Part shown: one piece after another, positions 2,536 to 37,744 of the stretch | Layout of the letters: every line of letters begins with the position of its first letter | Numbering within the stretch: position 1 is the first letter of the stretch | Origin: Deltaproteobacteria bacterium | Lineage (GTDB): Bacteria > Desulfobacterota > Desulfobulbia > Desulfobulbales > Desulfurivibrionaceae | DNA: 64,000 nt | Direction of reading: 5' to 3' | NCBI GenBank assembly: GCA_021802645.1 | Contig: JAJZRO010000002.1 | Location: forward strand, 128,257-192,256 | Translations under genes and position numbers: made by a program | Notes under the pieces: model-generated | Seen by the model: only the letters and a program-made list of their open reading frames with translations | What the model was told of the DNA's origin: nothing | Database searches by the model: none

Positions 2536-2985
2536 ATGGGGAAAGAGAATCGTCGTTCTCCGCGGTACAAAAGCAATCTGCCAGTGACGTTGCTGCTGCG
2601 TGAAAACGCCAGCGGCAGTAACCTTGTCGATCCGCTCGCCGGCTCCCTCGATGACCTTTCCCTCCATGGGGTCCGCCTCTCCGTTCCCCATATCCGTATC
2701 GGCGACCACCACCTTTTTTACACCTTTGCCGACAACCAACGACAGACCATCTACCTGGAGATCCCGCTACCGCATGGGAGCAGCCCCCCACTTTGCATTC
2801 CGGTACGGCCGGTCTGGTTCGACCATCTCCTGTCGCTGCCTGCTCAGCCTTTCCAGATCGGCATGGAGTTTCTGCTGCCCATTGAGGATGAACAACTTCT
2901 GCAACTGAACGCCTTGTTTGTGGAGAAAAGGGCGCGCGAGGGTTCCTGGTGGCGTTGGTTGCTGGGCAGCCACGCTGGCACCTGA
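2536..2985 (+). CDS. PilZ domain protein (probable c-di-GMP binding)
   Basis: The frame encodes a small PilZ protein of about 149 aa. Both c-di-GMP contact motifs are visible near the N-terminus: RRSPR (RxxxR type) at residues 5-9 and DLSLHG (DxSxxG type) about 35 residues later. The remaining sequence is a beta-rich barrel. A start at ATG 2536 puts the RxxxR motif right at the N-terminus, as is usual, and a GGAGGGG sits upstream; a TTG at 2494 would add 14 residues and is less likely. It faces a convergent PAS-GGDEF diguanylate cyclase 18 bp away, so the two could work in one c-di-GMP circuit (inference). Confidence 0.82.
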   Translation: MGKENRRSPRYKSNLPVTLLLRENASGSNLVDPLAGSLDDLSLHGVRLSVPHIRIGDHHLFYTFADNQRQTIYLEIPLPHGSSPPLCIPVRPVWFDHLLSLPAQPFQIGMEFLLPIEDEQLLQLNALFVEKRAREGSWWRWLLGSHAGT

Positions 2986-3003
2986 CCACTTATTTCCCCT
3001 CTC

Positions 3004-3906
3004 TTAAGGGCGCGGATCGGTCGAGACCCGGTTCTTGCCAGCCTTTTTGCTCTGATACATGAGCTGATCCGCCCGTCGTATCGCATCCTCCACCGTATCG
3101 TCCGGCCGCAGCAGCGTGGCTCCGATGGAGACGGTCACCCTGATCAGGGCGCCTGCGCCAACGGGAATGTCGGCGTGGCTGATGAGCATGCGCAACTTTT
3201 CCGCCACGCCGACCAGCTGCTGCTGGTCCACGCTGCGGATCTCGCCGACAAACTCCTCGCCGCCCCAACGACCGAACAGATCGAAGCCCCGCGAGTTGGT
3301 CAGCAAGGTGATGGCGATCTGCCGCAGCACCGCATCGCCGGCATCGTGGCCATAGGTGTCGTTGACTTCTTTGAAATTGTCCACATCCATGAAGAGGATA
3401 CCCGTGGGCCAGCCGTAACGGTCCAGCTCCCGGAGGCGATTTTCGATGGAGTTTGCCATAAAACGGCGGTTGGCGAGGCGGGTGAGGGAGTCGAGCAGGG
3501 CAAGTTGCTCCAGTTCCGCCATGCGGTTGGTGATGACCGAGGCGGCGCTGTTGTCGCTGAAGAGTTCCGCCGCGCCGACAATCTCACCCTCCACATCGCG
3601 GATGGGGCTGATGCGGATGCGCACCGGCACCCGATGGCCGTCTTTGTGGTGGAGATACACCTCGGCCTCCCGGTTCTGGCCGTCCTGCAGGCAGGCGGCC
3701 AGCGGACAGCTCCCTTCGCAGAGCAGGGTACCCTGCGCGTCCACATGGCGCAACAGCTGGTCGGAACAGCGTCTCCCAACGACCTCGGCGGCGCCGTATC
3801 CGGTGAGTTCCTCGGCCGCCCGGTTCCAGTAGGTGATCTGCCGACGGGTGTCGACGAAATAGATGCCGTCGTAAAGATTGTCCAGAATGGCCTTGTAACG
3901 CTTCAT
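3004..3906 (-). CDS. PAS-GGDEF diguanylate cyclase
   Basis: This 300-aa protein would synthesise c-di-GMP from two GTP. A PAS sensor domain covers about residues 6-125, followed by a GGDEF domain to the C-terminus. The active-site signature GGEEF is at residues 215-219. An RxxD inhibitory site (RGFD, 206-209) lies exactly five residues upstream, so product inhibition is expected. There is no membrane segment, and the PAS part contains two cysteines (LLCEGSCP) that might sense redox state or bind a ligand. The ATG at 3904-3906 follows an AGGAG site and is preferred over an upstream start. It lies 13 bp after pgl and is probably the last gene of the gnd-zwf-pgl operon. Confidence 0.93.
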   Translation of the reverse strand: MKRYKAILDNLYDGIYFVDTRRQITYWNRAAEELTGYGAAEVVGRRCSDQLLRHVDAQGTLLCEGSCPLAACLQDGQNREAEVYLHHKDGHRVPVRIRISPIRDVEGEIVGAAELFSDNSAASVITNRMAELEQLALLDSLTRLANRRFMANSIENRLRELDRYGWPTGILFMDVDNFKEVNDTYGHDAGDAVLRQIAITLLTNSRGFDLFGRWGGEEFVGEIRSVDQQQLVGVAEKLRMLISHADIPVGAGALIRVTVSIGATLLRPDDTVEDAIRRADQLMYQSKKAGKNRVSTDPRP

Positions 3907-3919
3907 GAAGGCTCCTCTT

Positions 3920-4645
3920 TCAGGGGGCAACGAACCAGATGAGGGTCGCCGGTTGTTGCAGCAAGGCCGCGGGATAAGGGAGCAGGGCCGGGTCCGGCGC
4001 CGTCACGATCTCATCGAGGATGGCCGCCTTCCGCGGGCCACTGATCAGAAAAACGAGCCGTTTCGCGTTGTTCAACACCGGCAAGGTCAGGGTGACGCGC
4101 GGCACCGGCGGCGAACCGCCTGGCCCGCATGCCGCGGCCCAGCGCTGCCGTTCGGCCAGAAGCGGCGAGACGGGAAACAACGAGGCGATGTGGCCGTCTT
4201 CCCCCATGCCGAGCAGGACGCAGTCGAAGCGGGGGAAACCCTGCGGGCTCAGCCGGCTGGGGGTGAAGAAACGGCGGAGTTCCTTCTCGTAGGCCACTGC
4301 CGCTCTTTCCGGTGAGGCGCCATCGGGAACGATGGCATGGATATGGGTGGCCGGCAACGGGATGTGATCCAGCAGGGTGGCCCTGGCCATGCCAAGGTTG
4401 CTGGCCGGATCATCCTGCGGCACCATGCGCTCGTCCCCCCAAAAAAGGTGCATCCGCGACCAGGGCAGCCTGCCCGCCATGGCCGGCGAGGCCAGCTCAC
4501 GGTACAGGGCTTGCGGGGTGGAGCCGCCGGCCAGCACGAGGGTGCATTCTCCACGGCGCCCCACCTCCTCCCCGGCCACGGCCGCGAGATAGTCCGCCAG
4601 TTCCCGGCTCGCCTCGGTGAGATCGGCAAAACGGCGGATTTCCAT
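3920..4645 (-). CDS. pgl: 6-phosphogluconolactonase
   Basis: The enzyme hydrolyses 6-phosphogluconolactone to 6-phosphogluconate, the second step of the oxidative pentose phosphate pathway. The 241-aa product belongs to the NagB/RpiA-related DevB family. Typical motifs are LVLAGGSTPQALY near residue 40, FWGDERMVPQDDPASN around 88-103, and LLGMGEDGHIASLFP near 165, which form the phosphate and lactone site. The ATG at 4643-4645 follows the zwf stop codon by 2 bp, indicating translational coupling. The neighbouring gnd and zwf genes confirm the assignment. Confidence 0.95.
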   Translation of the reverse strand: MEIRRFADLTEASRELADYLAAVAGEEVGRRGECTLVLAGGSTPQALYRELASPAMAGRLPWSRMHLFWGDERMVPQDDPASNLGMARATLLDHIPLPATHIHAIVPDGASPERAAVAYEKELRRFFTPSRLSPQGFPRFDCVLLGMGEDGHIASLFPVSPLLAERQRWAAACGPGGSPPVPRVTLTLPVLNNAKRLVFLISGPRKAAILDEIVTAPDPALLPYPAALLQQPATLIWFVAP

Positions 4646-33483: not shown

Positions 33484-33822
33484 TCAGCCCGCCACGAGTT
33501 CGTTCAGCCCCTCGACCACCAGCGCCAGTTCCCTGGCAGAGACCTTGCCGATCTTCTCGCCCAGCCGCTTGACGGACAGGGTTCTAATCTGGCTGATTTT
33601 AACCCAGGATTTCTTGGGGAGCTTGGCGGAAGCGAGTTCCAGGGTGAGAGGGAAGCCGGCCTTTTGCGGCTGGCTGGTGATGGCCACGGCAATCACCGTG
33701 CCGGAGTGCTTGTTGAAGACGTCGCGGCTCAAAATAAGCACCGGCCGCAGGCCGGCCTGTTCATGGCCGACCGTGGGATTCAGGTTGGCCCAATAGATCT
33801 CGCCCCTCAATATTCCGGCCAT
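33484..33822 (-). CDS. MazF/PemK family mRNA interferase toxin
   Basis: The 112-aa product starts MAGILRGEIYWANLNPTVG and continues with the HEQAGLRPVLILSRD segment, the hallmark of MazF/PemK/ChpB endoribonucleases that cleave mRNA in type II toxin-antitoxin systems. The later VKISQIRTLS strand is also typical. The gene begins 16 bp inside the end of the ribbon-helix-helix antitoxin gene, the usual overlapped arrangement. The active-site Arg and Ser/Thr positions look intact, so an active toxin is likely. Confidence 0.92.
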   Translation of the reverse strand: MAGILRGEIYWANLNPTVGHEQAGLRPVLILSRDVFNKHSGTVIAVAITSQPQKAGFPLTLELASAKLPKKSWVKISQIRTLSVKRLGEKIGKVSARELALVVEGLNELVAG

Positions 33823-34049
33823 TCTCCCCCCTCCGCGGACAACCCTTCGTCGGCCAGGGCCTGTTCAAAATCCGGATCGAGCTTGGCGCACTCCACTTCC
33901 AGCCGGTTCACTTCGACCTTGTTGAGCTTTTCTTTCAATGCCTCCTGGATCGCCTTGCTGCGGTTGGGAAAGGTGTGCGATTTGACCAGCAGATCGAGCC
34001 GGCGCAGGACATCCTCTTCAAGGGTGATAGCAATTTTTGCCGTTGCCAT
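33807..34049 (-). CDS. Ribbon-helix-helix antitoxin
   Basis: The 80-aa product begins with a beta-strand and two helices of a CopG/MetJ-type ribbon-helix-helix DNA-binding fold (KIAITLEEDVLRRLDLLV, then the NRSKAIQEALKEKL helix). The acidic C-terminal tail would wrap and neutralise the MazF-like toxin encoded downstream. The domain predicts autoregulation at the palindrome that lies 13 bp upstream of its start codon. Confidence 0.9.
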   Translation of the reverse strand: MATAKIAITLEEDVLRRLDLLVKSHTFPNRSKAIQEALKEKLNKVEVNRLEVECAKLDPDFEQALADEGLSAEGGEWPEY

Positions 34050-34062
34050 AAGGCCACCTCCT

Positions 34063-34191: not shown

Positions 34192-34659
34192 CTACTTGGC
34201 GTGATTCAGACGGATGACATAGGCGATGACGTCGGCGATCTGCTGCTGGCTGAGTAGCTTGGTGGCACCCCAGGCCGGCATCTTGATGGCCGGGTCGGGA
34301 CCCTCCGGCGTGGAACCGTTCTGGATGAAGAGGTCGATGTTGTAGGCAAAGACCTTGGCGTCCTTGCTCACCATGGTCTTGTCGATGGGATTGAGCGGCG
34401 GCACGGTGCCGTCCGACGAGCCGGGGTTGGGAATCCCGCCCTTGCCTTGGGCGCCGTGGCAGGGCAGGCAGTTGGTGGCAAAGATTTTGGCGCCGGCCTT
34501 GGCATGGCCGGCCATGGTGGCTGCCGCCCCAGGGTCGCCCTGGTTCGACGGCCGCGCTATTTCCTCGGCCCGAGCTGATCCGACTTGGGCAACGCAGACA
34601 ACCAGGGCCGCCACGGTCAGCAAACCCCACAAGGAGTAGGTCCTTTTTTTGTTTTCCAT
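34192..34659 (-). CDS. Periplasmic monoheme c-type cytochrome
   Basis: The 155-aa product has a signal peptide (about residues 1-27, ending SARAEE) and one class I cytochrome c domain with the heme-binding motif CLPCH near residue 60 and a distal Met (IKMPAWG) near 130. It should be a soluble periplasmic electron carrier. The ATG at 34657-34659 with an AAGGGG site is preferred over upstream in-frame starts that run into the cassette array. It lies directly beyond the last attC site, so the array inserted just upstream of this gene; the cytochrome itself has neighbour-like GC content and is not cassette DNA. Confidence 0.88.
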   Translation of the reverse strand: MENKKRTYSLWGLLTVAALVVCVAQVGSARAEEIARPSNQGDPGAAATMAGHAKAGAKIFATNCLPCHGAQGKGGIPNPGSSDGTVPPLNPIDKTMVSKDAKVFAYNIDLFIQNGSTPEGPDPAIKMPAWGATKLLSQQQIADVIAYVIRLNHAK

Positions 34660-34696
34660 ATCATCCCCTTTGTACTGCTTATTTGCAGACTGGCAA

Positions 34697-34763
34697 TCAG
34701 AACGTTTGAATTCACCGGCCTGCGCGGCTCTTTGTGCAGGTCCGGTGGAATGATGGGTTGGGC
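34697..34763 (-). repeat. attC-like recombination site 1 (end of cassette array)
   Basis: On the minus strand the 67-nt site reads GCCCAAC ... GTTCTGA, with an inner inverted repeat (CCACCGGACCTG and CAGGCCGGTG) and the GGTGAATTCAAAC segment that attC sites often show before the recombination triplet. The start core GCCCAAC is complementary to the GTTGGGT that begins the same cassette at attC site 2, as expected for a mobile cassette. The last six bases belong to the chromosomal flank. Confidence 0.8.
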
Positions 34764-34778
34764 GGCGCTGCGACATCG

Positions 34779-35246
34779 TTATTGCTTTCGTTTCTGTGAA
34801 ACTGAGAGATCGGCGATATTTCCTCGGGTTCGATTGACGTCGACGTAAAAGAAACGATCGCCGGCATCCAGCGCTGCGCGGTCTCCGACGCGCTGGTCTT
34901 TGACGCTAGTCGGTTTATTAGCATCAATCACCGCTGAAAACGATACGGTAGTTTCGCCCACATGATCCATGCGGATCGTGACGCGTCCATCCGATGTGGT
35001 CGCTGACTGGCCCTCAAATACGGACAGCTTTTCTAGCCCAGAAGCCTCTTCCACGGGTATCGATGAGCTTCTTGAACCCAAGGCTGTTTTAGCACGTTGG
35101 ACTTCATCCTTAAGTTGAGCAATCTGAAAATCACGCGGAGACACTAGGACTTCTTGCGCAACTTTCCAGGTCACGCCTGCAACCGCGGCGCACACCATTA
35201 GCACCGAAATAAACCAGTTCTGCTTAAGGCGTTCCAAAATTGACAC
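34779..35246 (-). CDS. Cassette-borne membrane-anchored hypothetical protein
   Basis: The 155-aa product has one N-terminal hydrophobic helix (about residues 11-30), a short coiled-coil-like segment (about 38-55), and a C-terminal soluble domain of unknown fold (about 75-155) rich in beta-strand-like sequence with FFYVDVNRTRG near its end. The GTG start (35244-35246) follows a GAGGAG site. GC content is lower than in the surrounding genes. The stop codon lies 15 bp before attC site 1, the standard position for a cassette gene. I do not recognise the family; its orientation in the membrane suggests a periplasmic domain. Confidence 0.75.
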   Translation of the reverse strand: MSILERLKQNWFISVLMVCAAVAGVTWKVAQEVLVSPRDFQIAQLKDEVQRAKTALGSRSSSIPVEEASGLEKLSVFEGQSATTSDGRVTIRMDHVGETTVSFSAVIDANKPTSVKDQRVGDRAALDAGDRFFYVDVNRTRGNIADLSVSQKRKQ

Positions 35247-35280: not shown

Positions 35281-35352
35281 ACCCAACGTTTGAATTCAGC
35301 GGACCGCCAAAAGCGGCGCTTTTTGGCGGTCCGCTAAAATTATTTGTTAGCC
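35281..35352 (-). repeat. attC-like recombination site 2
   Basis: The 72-nt site reads GGCTAAC ... GTTGGGT on the minus strand. Its inner stem is long (AGCGGACCGCCAAAA paired with TTTTGGCGGTCCGCT), and the 3' side carries the GAATTCAAAC segment seen in site 1. The TAA stop of the upstream cassette gene is inside the GGCTAAC core, a common feature of cassettes. Confidence 0.85.
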
Positions 35353-36042
35353 ATTGTTACGCAGCTCTGTAATAGCCTTTGAAACAATGGCCGTTCGCAT
35401 TTCAGTCAGTTCTTCGGTTCCTAAGATTGAGCGAAGACGGCGGATCATCATTGATACAGCTAGCTGGTCAGTAAGACGCTCACCTTGCCATTCTTCAAAC
35501 CCCATTACTTCTGCGAACGTACGGTACATGGCCTCCAGCTTTTGCTGCCTGTCTTCAGCGCTAGACGTGCCATAAACGTAACCCGCTATTGCACCAATAC
35601 GCCTGAGAGCAGCCTCAAAGGTTTCTAGTTCGGTCTCAATTTTCGCGGTGAGCCATACAGCATATTTCTGCTGGAGCATATAGAGAGCACTGGTGTGCCC
35701 GAGAACTTCTTCCGTAGGGCCTTCATGGAAGAGTGTGGTTAGTGTTTTATGTACTTCTTGCGCATATTCTTCGCTGAACTGAACGTGCTTATCGAAAGCA
35801 ACATTTGCCATATGCGAGCTTGCACCAAGCGAAAATTGGTTTTGCGCTGCAAGAATTAACAAGGCTCTTTCGTGGGCGGCTTGATCTCGCAGGATTTGAA
35901 GTAAGGCTGCAACAACCGAGCCGACGAGCGGGATACCGGCGAGCAGTTGAATGAATTCACCACCAGGATGCCAATAGAAAAATGCGAGAGAAGCCACAAA
36001 GATGATGGCGATTCCCAAGTATGTTTTTCTTGTTTTCGACAA
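35347..36042 (-). CDS. Cassette-borne two-helix membrane protein, hypothetical
   Basis: The 231-aa product has two hydrophobic helices near the N-terminus (about residues 8-24 and 31-49) and a long, mostly helical cytoplasmic part with a Glu/Leu-rich middle. No catalytic motif is recognised. The TTG start (36040-36042) is supported by an AGGAG site five bases upstream. The TAA stop is part of the attC site 2 core. Codon use and GC content differ from neighbours, as for a transferred gene. Membrane-hairpin proteins of this kind are seen as effectors in some defence and stress modules, but no such function can be assigned here. Confidence 0.75.
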   Translation of the reverse strand: MSKTRKTYLGIAIIFVASLAFFYWHPGGEFIQLLAGIPLVGSVVAALLQILRDQAAHERALLILAAQNQFSLGASSHMANVAFDKHVQFSEEYAQEVHKTLTTLFHEGPTEEVLGHTSALYMLQQKYAVWLTAKIETELETFEAALRRIGAIAGYVYGTSSAEDRQQKLEAMYRTFAEVMGFEEWQGERLTDQLAVSMMIRRLRSILGTEELTEMRTAIVSKAITELRNNG

Positions 36043-36056
36043 GTGCGCTCCTAAAT

Positions 36057-36117
36057 GGCTAACGCTCGCGTAATAGGCGCGAGCTTGCGAGCGTCCTTAT
36101 TGACGCGTTTGTTATGT
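36057..36117 (-). repeat. attC-like recombination site 3
   Basis: The 61-nt site reads ACATAAC ... GTTAGCC on the minus strand, with an inner imperfect stem (AAACGCGTCAATAAGGACGC against the CGCGCCTATTACGCGAGC side) and a small apical loop. The GTTAGCC that starts the next cassette is exactly complementary to the GGCTAAC core of site 2, so the intervening 776 bp form one circularisable cassette. The upstream gene ends with TGA directly against this site. Confidence 0.8.
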
Positions 36118-37716
36118 TCAGCTCAGTAGCCTTGTAGCTGGTTGAATAATGTCTTTCATCATTTGCAGTGTCTCGTTAGAGTCAATTAGCATTTTTCTTA
36201 CTGCTTGCTCATATTTCTCTCTTGATGGAAACAAAGCCTTTCTGGCTATTAATTCAAGAGCTGGGGTCTCCCTAAGAGGGTAGCGGGAAATAAGTTTTCC
36301 TATGTCCTTTCTATCAATTAAATCAGATAGTAACCCCAACTCTTCACTAAGAATTGGTGCCGAAGAAAACGCTACTTCCACATCACCTGCCAGTATCCTC
36401 CTCCAGTCTGGACATTCTCTATATGCATGATCCTTTACTTTTCTTTCGACCATTCTGGCAGCCATCCGATCTTTATGTTGATTTGCGGCTTGTGCTACGG
36501 AATCTATGATTTCAGCCATCGTAGCCTCAATATCAATTTCATTTACTGTAGCTACACGAGTTAACAAGGCACGTATGACCGAAGGGTGATAGTAAAGAGA
36601 TTCTACAGAATACTGCTCTAGCGGAATTATTCCGCCTTCTTGCAATCTCTCACACTCTTCATCTGTTCGATTATCCCTATCTATAATTCCGAACGCAGAT
36701 ATCCAATGATTATGCTCAGATGCTCTAATACCTGAAACGACCCTCTCTACATCAACGCAACTACCAAGTGGTTTTATACTTTTAGTGGGGTAAAGAATTT
36801 GATAAAGCTGAAGATCTAAGCTGGAACTTCTTCCCTCTACAAACAATAAAGTCCTTCTTGATCCAAGAACCGCTAAAGCTATGTCCTCATCCATCTCTTC
36901 AATATTTTCAACATGGTCAGCAGACCAATGTCTTGGCTGATGTGAATACTGTCTAAGTAAAAGTGCTCCGCATTTTTCTTGGTCGTGAGGCAATGTGATA
37001 TCGTGCGTTGAAACCACAAATGCGCAGTCCTCTCGATAGGCAAGCAACGTACTAATAAGGGGAGAAACAATTGAACGATGAAGATGCCTTTCAGGTTCAT
37101 CAAGTAGGACTAACGTATTTTTTGGTGCTGTGAGTACGTTCGCAATAATCAGCAGTGCATTTCTTTCGCCATCAGAAAGTTGCGCAATGCTATATGGTTG
37201 GCACCCCTCACGAATGGCAATCAGTCTGCTGCCTTGATCCACATCGACCCGAAAGTGAAGGTTGGAAATTTGGAGGATGTCATTCATCTTTGATATCGGG
37301 GATTGCTCTCTTGCCAATGTCTCGACATCAGCCATGTTTCCCGCTCTAGCGGCTTCAGCAATCTTCCTTGCGTCAACATTTTCAGAATCTATAAGATCAA
37401 ATATGTTTGCCTGTGACCTTTGATGAGCGTAATCGTCTTTCCACCTAGATTGTTCCTGACGATCTACGGTGGTAATGTTTGTTTCCATTTGCTGCCGTGA
37501 GGCGGGGGTCAAATCGACAGAGTCTGAGCTTAACCATATTTGTCTATGAGCAGTTATCCTACGCACTTTTCCAGTATTTTGTGTCGTAAAGGCATGCATA
37601 AGTGTCGACTTGCCTGTCCCATTTGGCCCGACCATAAAAAGTACTTCCCCGGACCTTATCGTTAGCTGCTTTTGCCGACCATCATTCTGGGGATAATTTA
37701 AATTAAACTCTGTCAT
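36118..37716 (-). CDS. ABC-type AAA ATPase with C-terminal TOPRIM-like domain (putative defence protein)
   Basis: The 532-aa product starts with an ABC/SMC-like ATPase: Walker A GPNGTGKST near residue 31, a signature-like LSDGERN near 180, Walker B LVLLDEPERHLH near 205 and the switch His in VSTHD near 236. The second half has TOPRIM-like acidic motifs (LLFVEGRSSS with Glu, then GIIDRDNRTDEE with DxD), as in OLD nucleases and the DUF4435 proteins. The ATPase plus DUF4435 combination is known from PARIS (AriA and AriB), where the parts are usually separate genes. The second ATG (37714-37716) fits the AAGGA site best; ATG 37720-37722 is an alternative. Low GC marks it as acquired. Confidence 0.82.
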   Translation of the reverse strand: MTEFNLNYPQNDGRQKQLTIRSGEVLFMVGPNGTGKSTLMHAFTTQNTGKVRRITAHRQIWLSSDSVDLTPASRQQMETNITTVDRQEQSRWKDDYAHQRSQANIFDLIDSENVDARKIAEAARAGNMADVETLAREQSPISKMNDILQISNLHFRVDVDQGSRLIAIREGCQPYSIAQLSDGERNALLIIANVLTAPKNTLVLLDEPERHLHRSIVSPLISTLLAYREDCAFVVSTHDITLPHDQEKCGALLLRQYSHQPRHWSADHVENIEEMDEDIALAVLGSRRTLLFVEGRSSSLDLQLYQILYPTKSIKPLGSCVDVERVVSGIRASEHNHWISAFGIIDRDNRTDEECERLQEGGIIPLEQYSVESLYYHPSVIRALLTRVATVNEIDIEATMAEIIDSVAQAANQHKDRMAARMVERKVKDHAYRECPDWRRILAGDVEVAFSSAPILSEELGLLSDLIDRKDIGKLISRYPLRETPALELIARKALFPSREKYEQAVRKMLIDSNETLQMMKDIIQPATRLLS

Positions 37717-37744
37717 TTGCATCCTTACTCTTTATAGAACATAA

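Follow-up and report, generated by a model that had tools for sequence, protein, structure and literature searches.

Gene Content of the Locus

The window analyzed here, a stretch of 64,000 nucleotides from the genome of a Desulfurivibrionaceae bacterium (GCA_021802645.1, contig JAJZRO010000002.1), carries on its minus strand an intact and uninterrupted open reading frame (36118–37722, stop codon included; ariAB) which starts with ATG and encodes a protein of 534 amino acids. The start at 37716 used in the initial annotation corresponds to residue 3, the second ATG in frame; it is as plausible as the one at 37722 and gives a protein of 532 aa. Read along the minus strand, ariAB is followed by an attC site, an ORF of 231 aa, a second attC site, an ORF of 155 aa, a third attC site and a gene encoding a cytochrome c.

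The attC site of ariAB (36057–36119, minus strand; R'' GAACATAAC at 36119–36111, R' GTTAGCC) has a closure and stem score that was reached in none of 40 shuffles, and the 5' end of the cassette, TTATGTTC (37737–37744, minus strand), is the exact reverse complement of the R'' sequence GAACATAA (8 of 8 nucleotides). The ORF is thus followed by an attC and preceded by an end complementary to its own R'', as expected of an integron cassette, and this reciprocity over 8 nt bears out the mobile cassette proposed in the initial annotation, which had mentioned neither the minus strand nor the lack of an integron integrase in the genome. The second cassette (ORF at 35347–36042 with a TTG start; attC at 35281–35352, R'' GGCTAAC, R' GTTGGGT; both on the minus strand) begins with G|TTAGCCAT, reciprocal to the R'' sequence ATGGCTAAC over 8 of 8 positions. 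For the third (ORF at 34779–35246 with a GTG start; attC at 34697–34763, R'' GCCCAAC, R' GTTCTGA; both on the minus strand), with which the array ends, the start G|TTGGGTG matches the R'' sequence CGCCCAAC at 6 of the 7 positions after the G. The bottom strands of the three sites fold as attC-type hairpins (z of -2.4, -4.6 and -2.2, respectively), and GC content drops from 60–66% in the flanks to 40–49% across 35.0–38.0 kb. Neither companion cassette protein could be assigned to a family in Pfam, NCBIfam or PADLOC. By inspection, both begin with a likely membrane segment, in the 231-aa protein a probable N-terminal anchor.

The base preceding the first cassette is an A instead of the G of a regular junction, a deviation compatible with insertion at a secondary site or with decay of the junction. 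No protein of the genome (2.55 Mb, 99.4% complete) exceeded the cut-off of 265 bits for the integron integrase model TIGR02249, which is passed in 136 of 251 genomes of the order, the same genus included. The two tyrosine recombinases of the genome score 82 and 80 bits on this model, appear to be devoid of the integron-specific insert and are consistent with Xer-type enzymes. We therefore class the array as a cassette cluster without an integrase. Among the flanking genes, the phosphate transporter is retained in two members of the bacterial family at 82–83% identity. The cytochrome c gene is absent from all eight relatives searched, so that no clean empty site was found. A search of 27 genomes of the family matched the DNA upstream of the array only in short fragments and so gave no attI site. 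The listed start of the cytochrome c ORF (34192–34776, minus strand) overlaps the third attC; the gene probably begins at the ATG at 34659, immediately beyond the end of the array. Beyond this gene lie a MazF/PemK-type toxin gene (33484–33822) and, just upstream of it, a likely antitoxin gene (33484–34050 for the pair, minus strand).

An Rfam search returned no RNA feature above threshold. A terminator-like hairpin (38021–37991) follows the gene upstream of ariAB, and a consensus scan of the DNA before ariAB found no clear promoter-like site on its strand. Together with the lack of an integrase in a nearly complete genome, this would fit a gene that is intact but silent, stranded in an array that has neither an integrase nor the integrase's promoter, and of no present benefit to the host. 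We regard such a silent gene as rather unlikely, since the reading frame and all motifs are fully intact and consensus scans overlook many promoters. Moreover, internal promoters can drive the expression of defence genes in integrons, according to PMC12409362, which describes work in V. parahaemolyticus.

Domain Architecture and Family Assignment

In PADLOC, the protein matches the AriAB fusion model PDLC02982 (E = 9.5e-67, 223.9 bits) over residues 3–413, the final 120 residues falling outside the match, with the runners-up far behind (AriA alone at 3e-15, also PtuA, GajA and other ATPases). Pfam identifies AAA_21 (2.1e-14, 54.8 bits) and DUF4435, the AriB domain (7.9e-11, 42.6 bits), both above the gathering score; profile matches of this strength lie far beyond what chance would give. 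For separate domains, PARIS has been delimited by AAA_21 or AAA_15 together with DUF4435 at a Pfam score threshold of 27 (PMC9122126); here AAA_21 and DUF4435 both exceed 27 and lie in one chain. By sequence profile, the best PDB match is AriA, and AlphaFold modelled the full-length protein with high confidence (pLDDT 92.6, pTM 0.78).

The N-terminal half (residues 1–274, 36901–37722, minus strand) corresponds to AAA_21 and carries the Walker A motif GPNGTGKS (residues 32–39, 37606–37629), the ABC signature SDGER (residues 183–187, 37162–37176), the Walker B motif LVLLDEPE (residues 204–211, 37090–37113) and the switch histidine H240 (37003–37005). In an alignment of 86 family members, G32, G35, G37 and K38 of Walker A, S183 and E186 of the signature, P210 and E211 of Walker B and H240 are identical throughout, and D208 and E209 are identical in 85. 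The AlphaFold model of this half aligns with AriA (8v46_B, Z 15.1, rmsd 3.7, 237 residues; 8ux9_B, Z 14.9) and with PtuA of retron Ec78 and Septu (Z 15–16), AriA and PtuA being tied. As modelled, the N-terminal half is hence shown to be an AriA/PtuA-type ABC ATPase with all motifs.

The C-terminal half (residues 275–534, 36121–36900, minus strand) contains DUF4435 and comprises a TOPRIM and a helical part. When folded alone by AlphaFold (pLDDT 94.1), its best structural match is AriB (8ux9_A, Z 10.9, rmsd 6.2, 209 residues aligned within a span of residues 2–260, i.e., the whole domain), with 8v46_D giving Z 10.2 and rmsd 7.1 over 216 aligned residues, again spanning the whole domain. Below AriB follow the C-terminal regions of OLD proteins (Z 7.6–6.7), GajA (6.2–5.6), and Retron-Eco8 and the T. 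scotoductus OLD (5.8–5.3). These AriB matches come from a second-look structural aligner; Foldseek alone gave no match with E <0.001 for this half, and a sequence-profile search of the PDB with it recovered neither AriB nor OLD. The AriB call thus rests on DUF4435 and the PADLOC model at the level of sequence and on the second-look alignment at the level of structure. The comparison with AriA/AriB and OLD structures suggested in the initial annotation, which would have taken a failure of this half to fold as TOPRIM as a refutation, accordingly returned an AriB fold and did not refute the PARIS reading.

The TOPRIM glutamate E296 (36835–36837), both aspartates of the DxD motif D348-R-D350 (36673–36681) and E374 of a third metal motif, S372-V-E374 (36601–36609), are identical in 86 of 86 sequences, as are D303 (36814–36816), in the loop after the TOPRIM glutamate, and the glycines G287, G297 and G345. 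In the Bp OLD nuclease, the metals are held by E400, D455 and D457 and by E404, T506 and E508 (PMC6755086). By order and spacing along the chain, E296, D348, D350, S372 and E374 would correspond to these residues, and D303, a candidate second-metal acid, may on its spacing stand in place of E404. The modelled C-terminal half thus shows the AriB fold with a complete set of TOPRIM metal-binding residues.

Some of these features are also those of an OLD-family (Class 1 type) ATPase-TOPRIM nuclease, which would degrade DNA instead of tRNA: the domain order in one chain is that of OLD proteins, the SxE motif is spaced like T506/E508 of Bp OLD (PMC6755086), and the C-terminal half does resemble OLD C-terminal regions (Z 6.7–7.6). 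However, this half is closest to AriB in both comparisons (Z 10.9 and 10.2), DUF4435 is the AriB domain, and the PADLOC AriAB match (9.5e-67) stands far above any OLD or GajA model, which makes an OLD-type nuclease improbable. Of the original "PARIS/OLD-like" label, the PARIS part is therefore retained and the OLD part is less favoured.

The assignment to single-chain PARIS is well supported by the family profiles, the folds of both halves and the conserved catalytic residues: AAA_21 with DUF4435, the AriAB model, the AriA fold, the AriB fold and intact catalytic residues were all found. The initial annotation had proposed a PARIS-like candidate that combines an intact ABC ATPase and an acidic TOPRIM-like half in a single chain, and in these points it is confirmed. 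The single chain as such is not new, PARIS having been described before in the form of AriAB fusions encoded by one gene (PMC9122126, 2022; PMC12409363). A partial survey of the literature returned no experiment on a single-chain PARIS.

Distribution, Phylogeny, and Recurrence as Cassettes

Full-length homologs were detected by tblastn on plasmids of Acidiphilium (40% identity), Kocuria (31%) and others, including 5–6 kb plasmids of E. coli and Salmonella (32%); relatives also occur on small plasmids of Psychrobacter. A single-protein query against genomes and viral contigs retrieved no relative; an alignment query recovered 80 further loci in genomes and 20 viral contigs. The closest relatives (57–59% identical) are found in two gammaproteobacterial MAGs and one Sneathiella MAG. 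Within the order of the window's host, a match covering most of the query is limited to 5 of 258 genomes, and the only further genome from the host's genus lacks one. Single-chain PARIS is thus a widespread family, present in many phyla, with a patchy distribution that fits horizontal spread.

A tree of the 86 sequences separates two deep clades of 22 and 64 members (SH-aLRT 100), and the protein of the window belongs to the larger clade, where it forms a supported group with its relatives from the three closest MAGs. Those members of the smaller clade that were tested against the PADLOC AriAB model score 1e-175 or better, those of the larger clade 1e-43 to 1e-66. At the third TOPRIM motif (alignment position 372), 53 of 64 sequences of the larger clade read SVE and all 22 of the smaller clade EVE, a split that may mark a difference in metal binding.

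The initial annotation had noted that, at 532 aa, the protein is more compact than AriA plus AriB together. That length holds for the second ATG; the 534 aa from the first compare with a family median of 541 (range 478–637), and compactness is therefore a trait of the whole single-chain family. Integron-borne defence genes have been reported to be streamlined (Darracq et al., 2025, as described in PMC12409362); for ariAB we reject streamlining by the cassette on the grounds of this length comparison.

Our first attC detector was too strict, finding one of the three sites of the window and none elsewhere, so its negative result elsewhere carries no meaning; it was replaced by a test of the reciprocity of cassette ends. 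This test identified a clear cassette for a relative from the other clade in Neptunomonas marina, within a visible run of cassettes, and a probable one for a relative in Brasilonema. In a flank-swap control over 84 loci, scores of at least 12 were expected 0.33 times and seen twice, and scores of at least 10 were expected 1.07 times and seen six times. The window itself scores 10.5, and its case rests mainly on the three consecutive reciprocal cassettes. PARIS can hence be added to the types of defence genes carried by integron cassettes, with cases in two or more distinct branches of the family. In N. marina (L113:1–4440), the adjoining cassettes encode proteins of 334 and 172 aa, neither of which matches PADLOC, the latter also lacking a Pfam match.

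Other genomic settings were noted. On a plasmid of Paraburkholderia sabiae (L038:345–4620), a complete two-gene PARIS (AriA 345–1775, AriB 1789–2763) lies directly upstream of a single-chain AriAB (2899–4620) on the same strand. The E. coli and Salmonella plasmids with single-chain PARIS are small and mobilizable, and the only one whose whole sequence was read (L036) carries a ToxN/AbiQ-type toxin gene as well. One PADLOC scan of ten neighbors of relatives for defence islands gave no convincing defence gene, the kinase and GlgB matches belonging to broad families.

Predicted Mode of Action

The biochemistry of PARIS has been described for the two-gene form (PMC9122126, PMC12409363, PMC11455837), in which an AriA hexamer holds three AriB until a phage protein such as Ocr binds, whereupon AriB is released, pairs and cleaves tRNA-Lys(UUU) (PMC12409363, PMC11455837). 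By analogy, an anti-phage role can be inferred for ariAB: its ATPase half might assemble into an oligomer, sense some protein of the phage (for E. coli PARIS, Ocr or another anti-restriction protein) and keep the tethered TOPRIM half inactive until then, upon which the TOPRIM halves would pair and cleave a host tRNA (tRNA-Lys(UUU) in E. coli PARIS), translation would stop and phage would not be produced. An ATPase-gated TOPRIM tRNase causing abortive infection appears to be the most likely action, tRNA cleavage being predicted from a homology to AriB that is remote in sequence. As the effector is covalently attached and cannot leave as AriB does, activation would have to take place inside the complex, by rearrangement or by pairing. 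Overall, we consider it probable that ariAB is a single-chain PARIS defence gene (an AriA-AriB fusion) which was captured as an integron cassette, is now the first of three in an array without its own integrase, and is predicted to act by ATPase-gated tRNA cleavage.

Toxin-antitoxin cassettes are known to stabilize cassette arrays. The protein might in the same manner be a one-protein toxin that acts mainly to protect the array from loss, phage defence being incidental, and the relatives on small plasmids do adjoin toxin-antitoxin genes. This seems very unlikely indeed: a single chain comes without a separate antitoxin of lower stability, and E. coli PARIS did not become toxic when either ariA or ariB was deleted, an argument against a toxin-antitoxin system (PMC9122126).

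Returning to single-chain PARIS, profile positions 120–246 align to residues 304–431 of AriA, while the two N-termini are in register (residue 3 with residue 3). E. coli AriA must therefore contain about 184 additional residues between its Walker A and signature motifs. The protein of the window lacks them, and may not respond to a trigger of the Ocr type. A review of OLD nucleases calls it unclear whether the mechanism of single-gene AriAB is distinct from that of other OLD-type proteins (PMC10568477). It is tempting to speculate, albeit with some reservation, that single-chain PARIS could be a mechanistically distinct branch, which without these AriA residues and with its nuclease tethered would respond to another trigger and pair its TOPRIM domains in the complex without release, and which recurs as integron cassettes (in the window, in N. 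marina and probably in Brasilonema). As an intact and compact single gene whose product has over 80 relatives and is confidently modelled, ariAB is a convenient subject for asking whether, and by what, a tethered AriB is activated.

Comparison With Known Systems

The gene of the window represents no new kind of system but a well-supported further example, the fusions being known since 2022 (PMC9122126) and defence cassettes since 2025 (as cited in PMC12409362). It is closest to the other single-gene PARIS fusions (PADLOC AriAB; AAA_21 and DUF4435 fusions of Rousset et al., 2022, PMC9122126), with which it has the domain order, a length of about 540 aa, the catalytic residues and full-length homology in common, and from which it differs by its place in the larger clade, a weaker score on the AriAB model and SVE instead of EVE as third motif. 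The two-gene PARIS of E. coli B185 (PDB 8ux9, 8v45–8v49) shares the folds of both halves, the ATPase motifs and the TOPRIM acids, whereas ariAB has one chain, a 1:1 ratio of the two halves and a tethered effector. OLD nucleases and GajA likewise carry a TOPRIM domain behind an ABC ATPase in a single chain, together with the E, DxD and SxE/TxE metal motifs; they are less similar to the C-terminal half (Z 7.6 or lower, compared to 10.9 for AriB), are without DUF4435 and target DNA. Gabija would in addition require the helicase partner gene gajB, which is absent beside ariAB, its neighbors being the two cassette ORFs of no family and the phosphate transporter. PtuA of Septu and retron Ec78/Eco7 is as close to the ATPase half as AriA (Z 15–16), but has no TOPRIM domain and works with the HNH protein PtuB. 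Finally, like the integron defence cassettes of Darracq (2025) and Kieffer (2025), as these are cited in PMC12409362, ariAB is a single-gene defence cassette between attC sites, but it lies in an array without integrase and encodes a protein no shorter than its non-cassette relatives.
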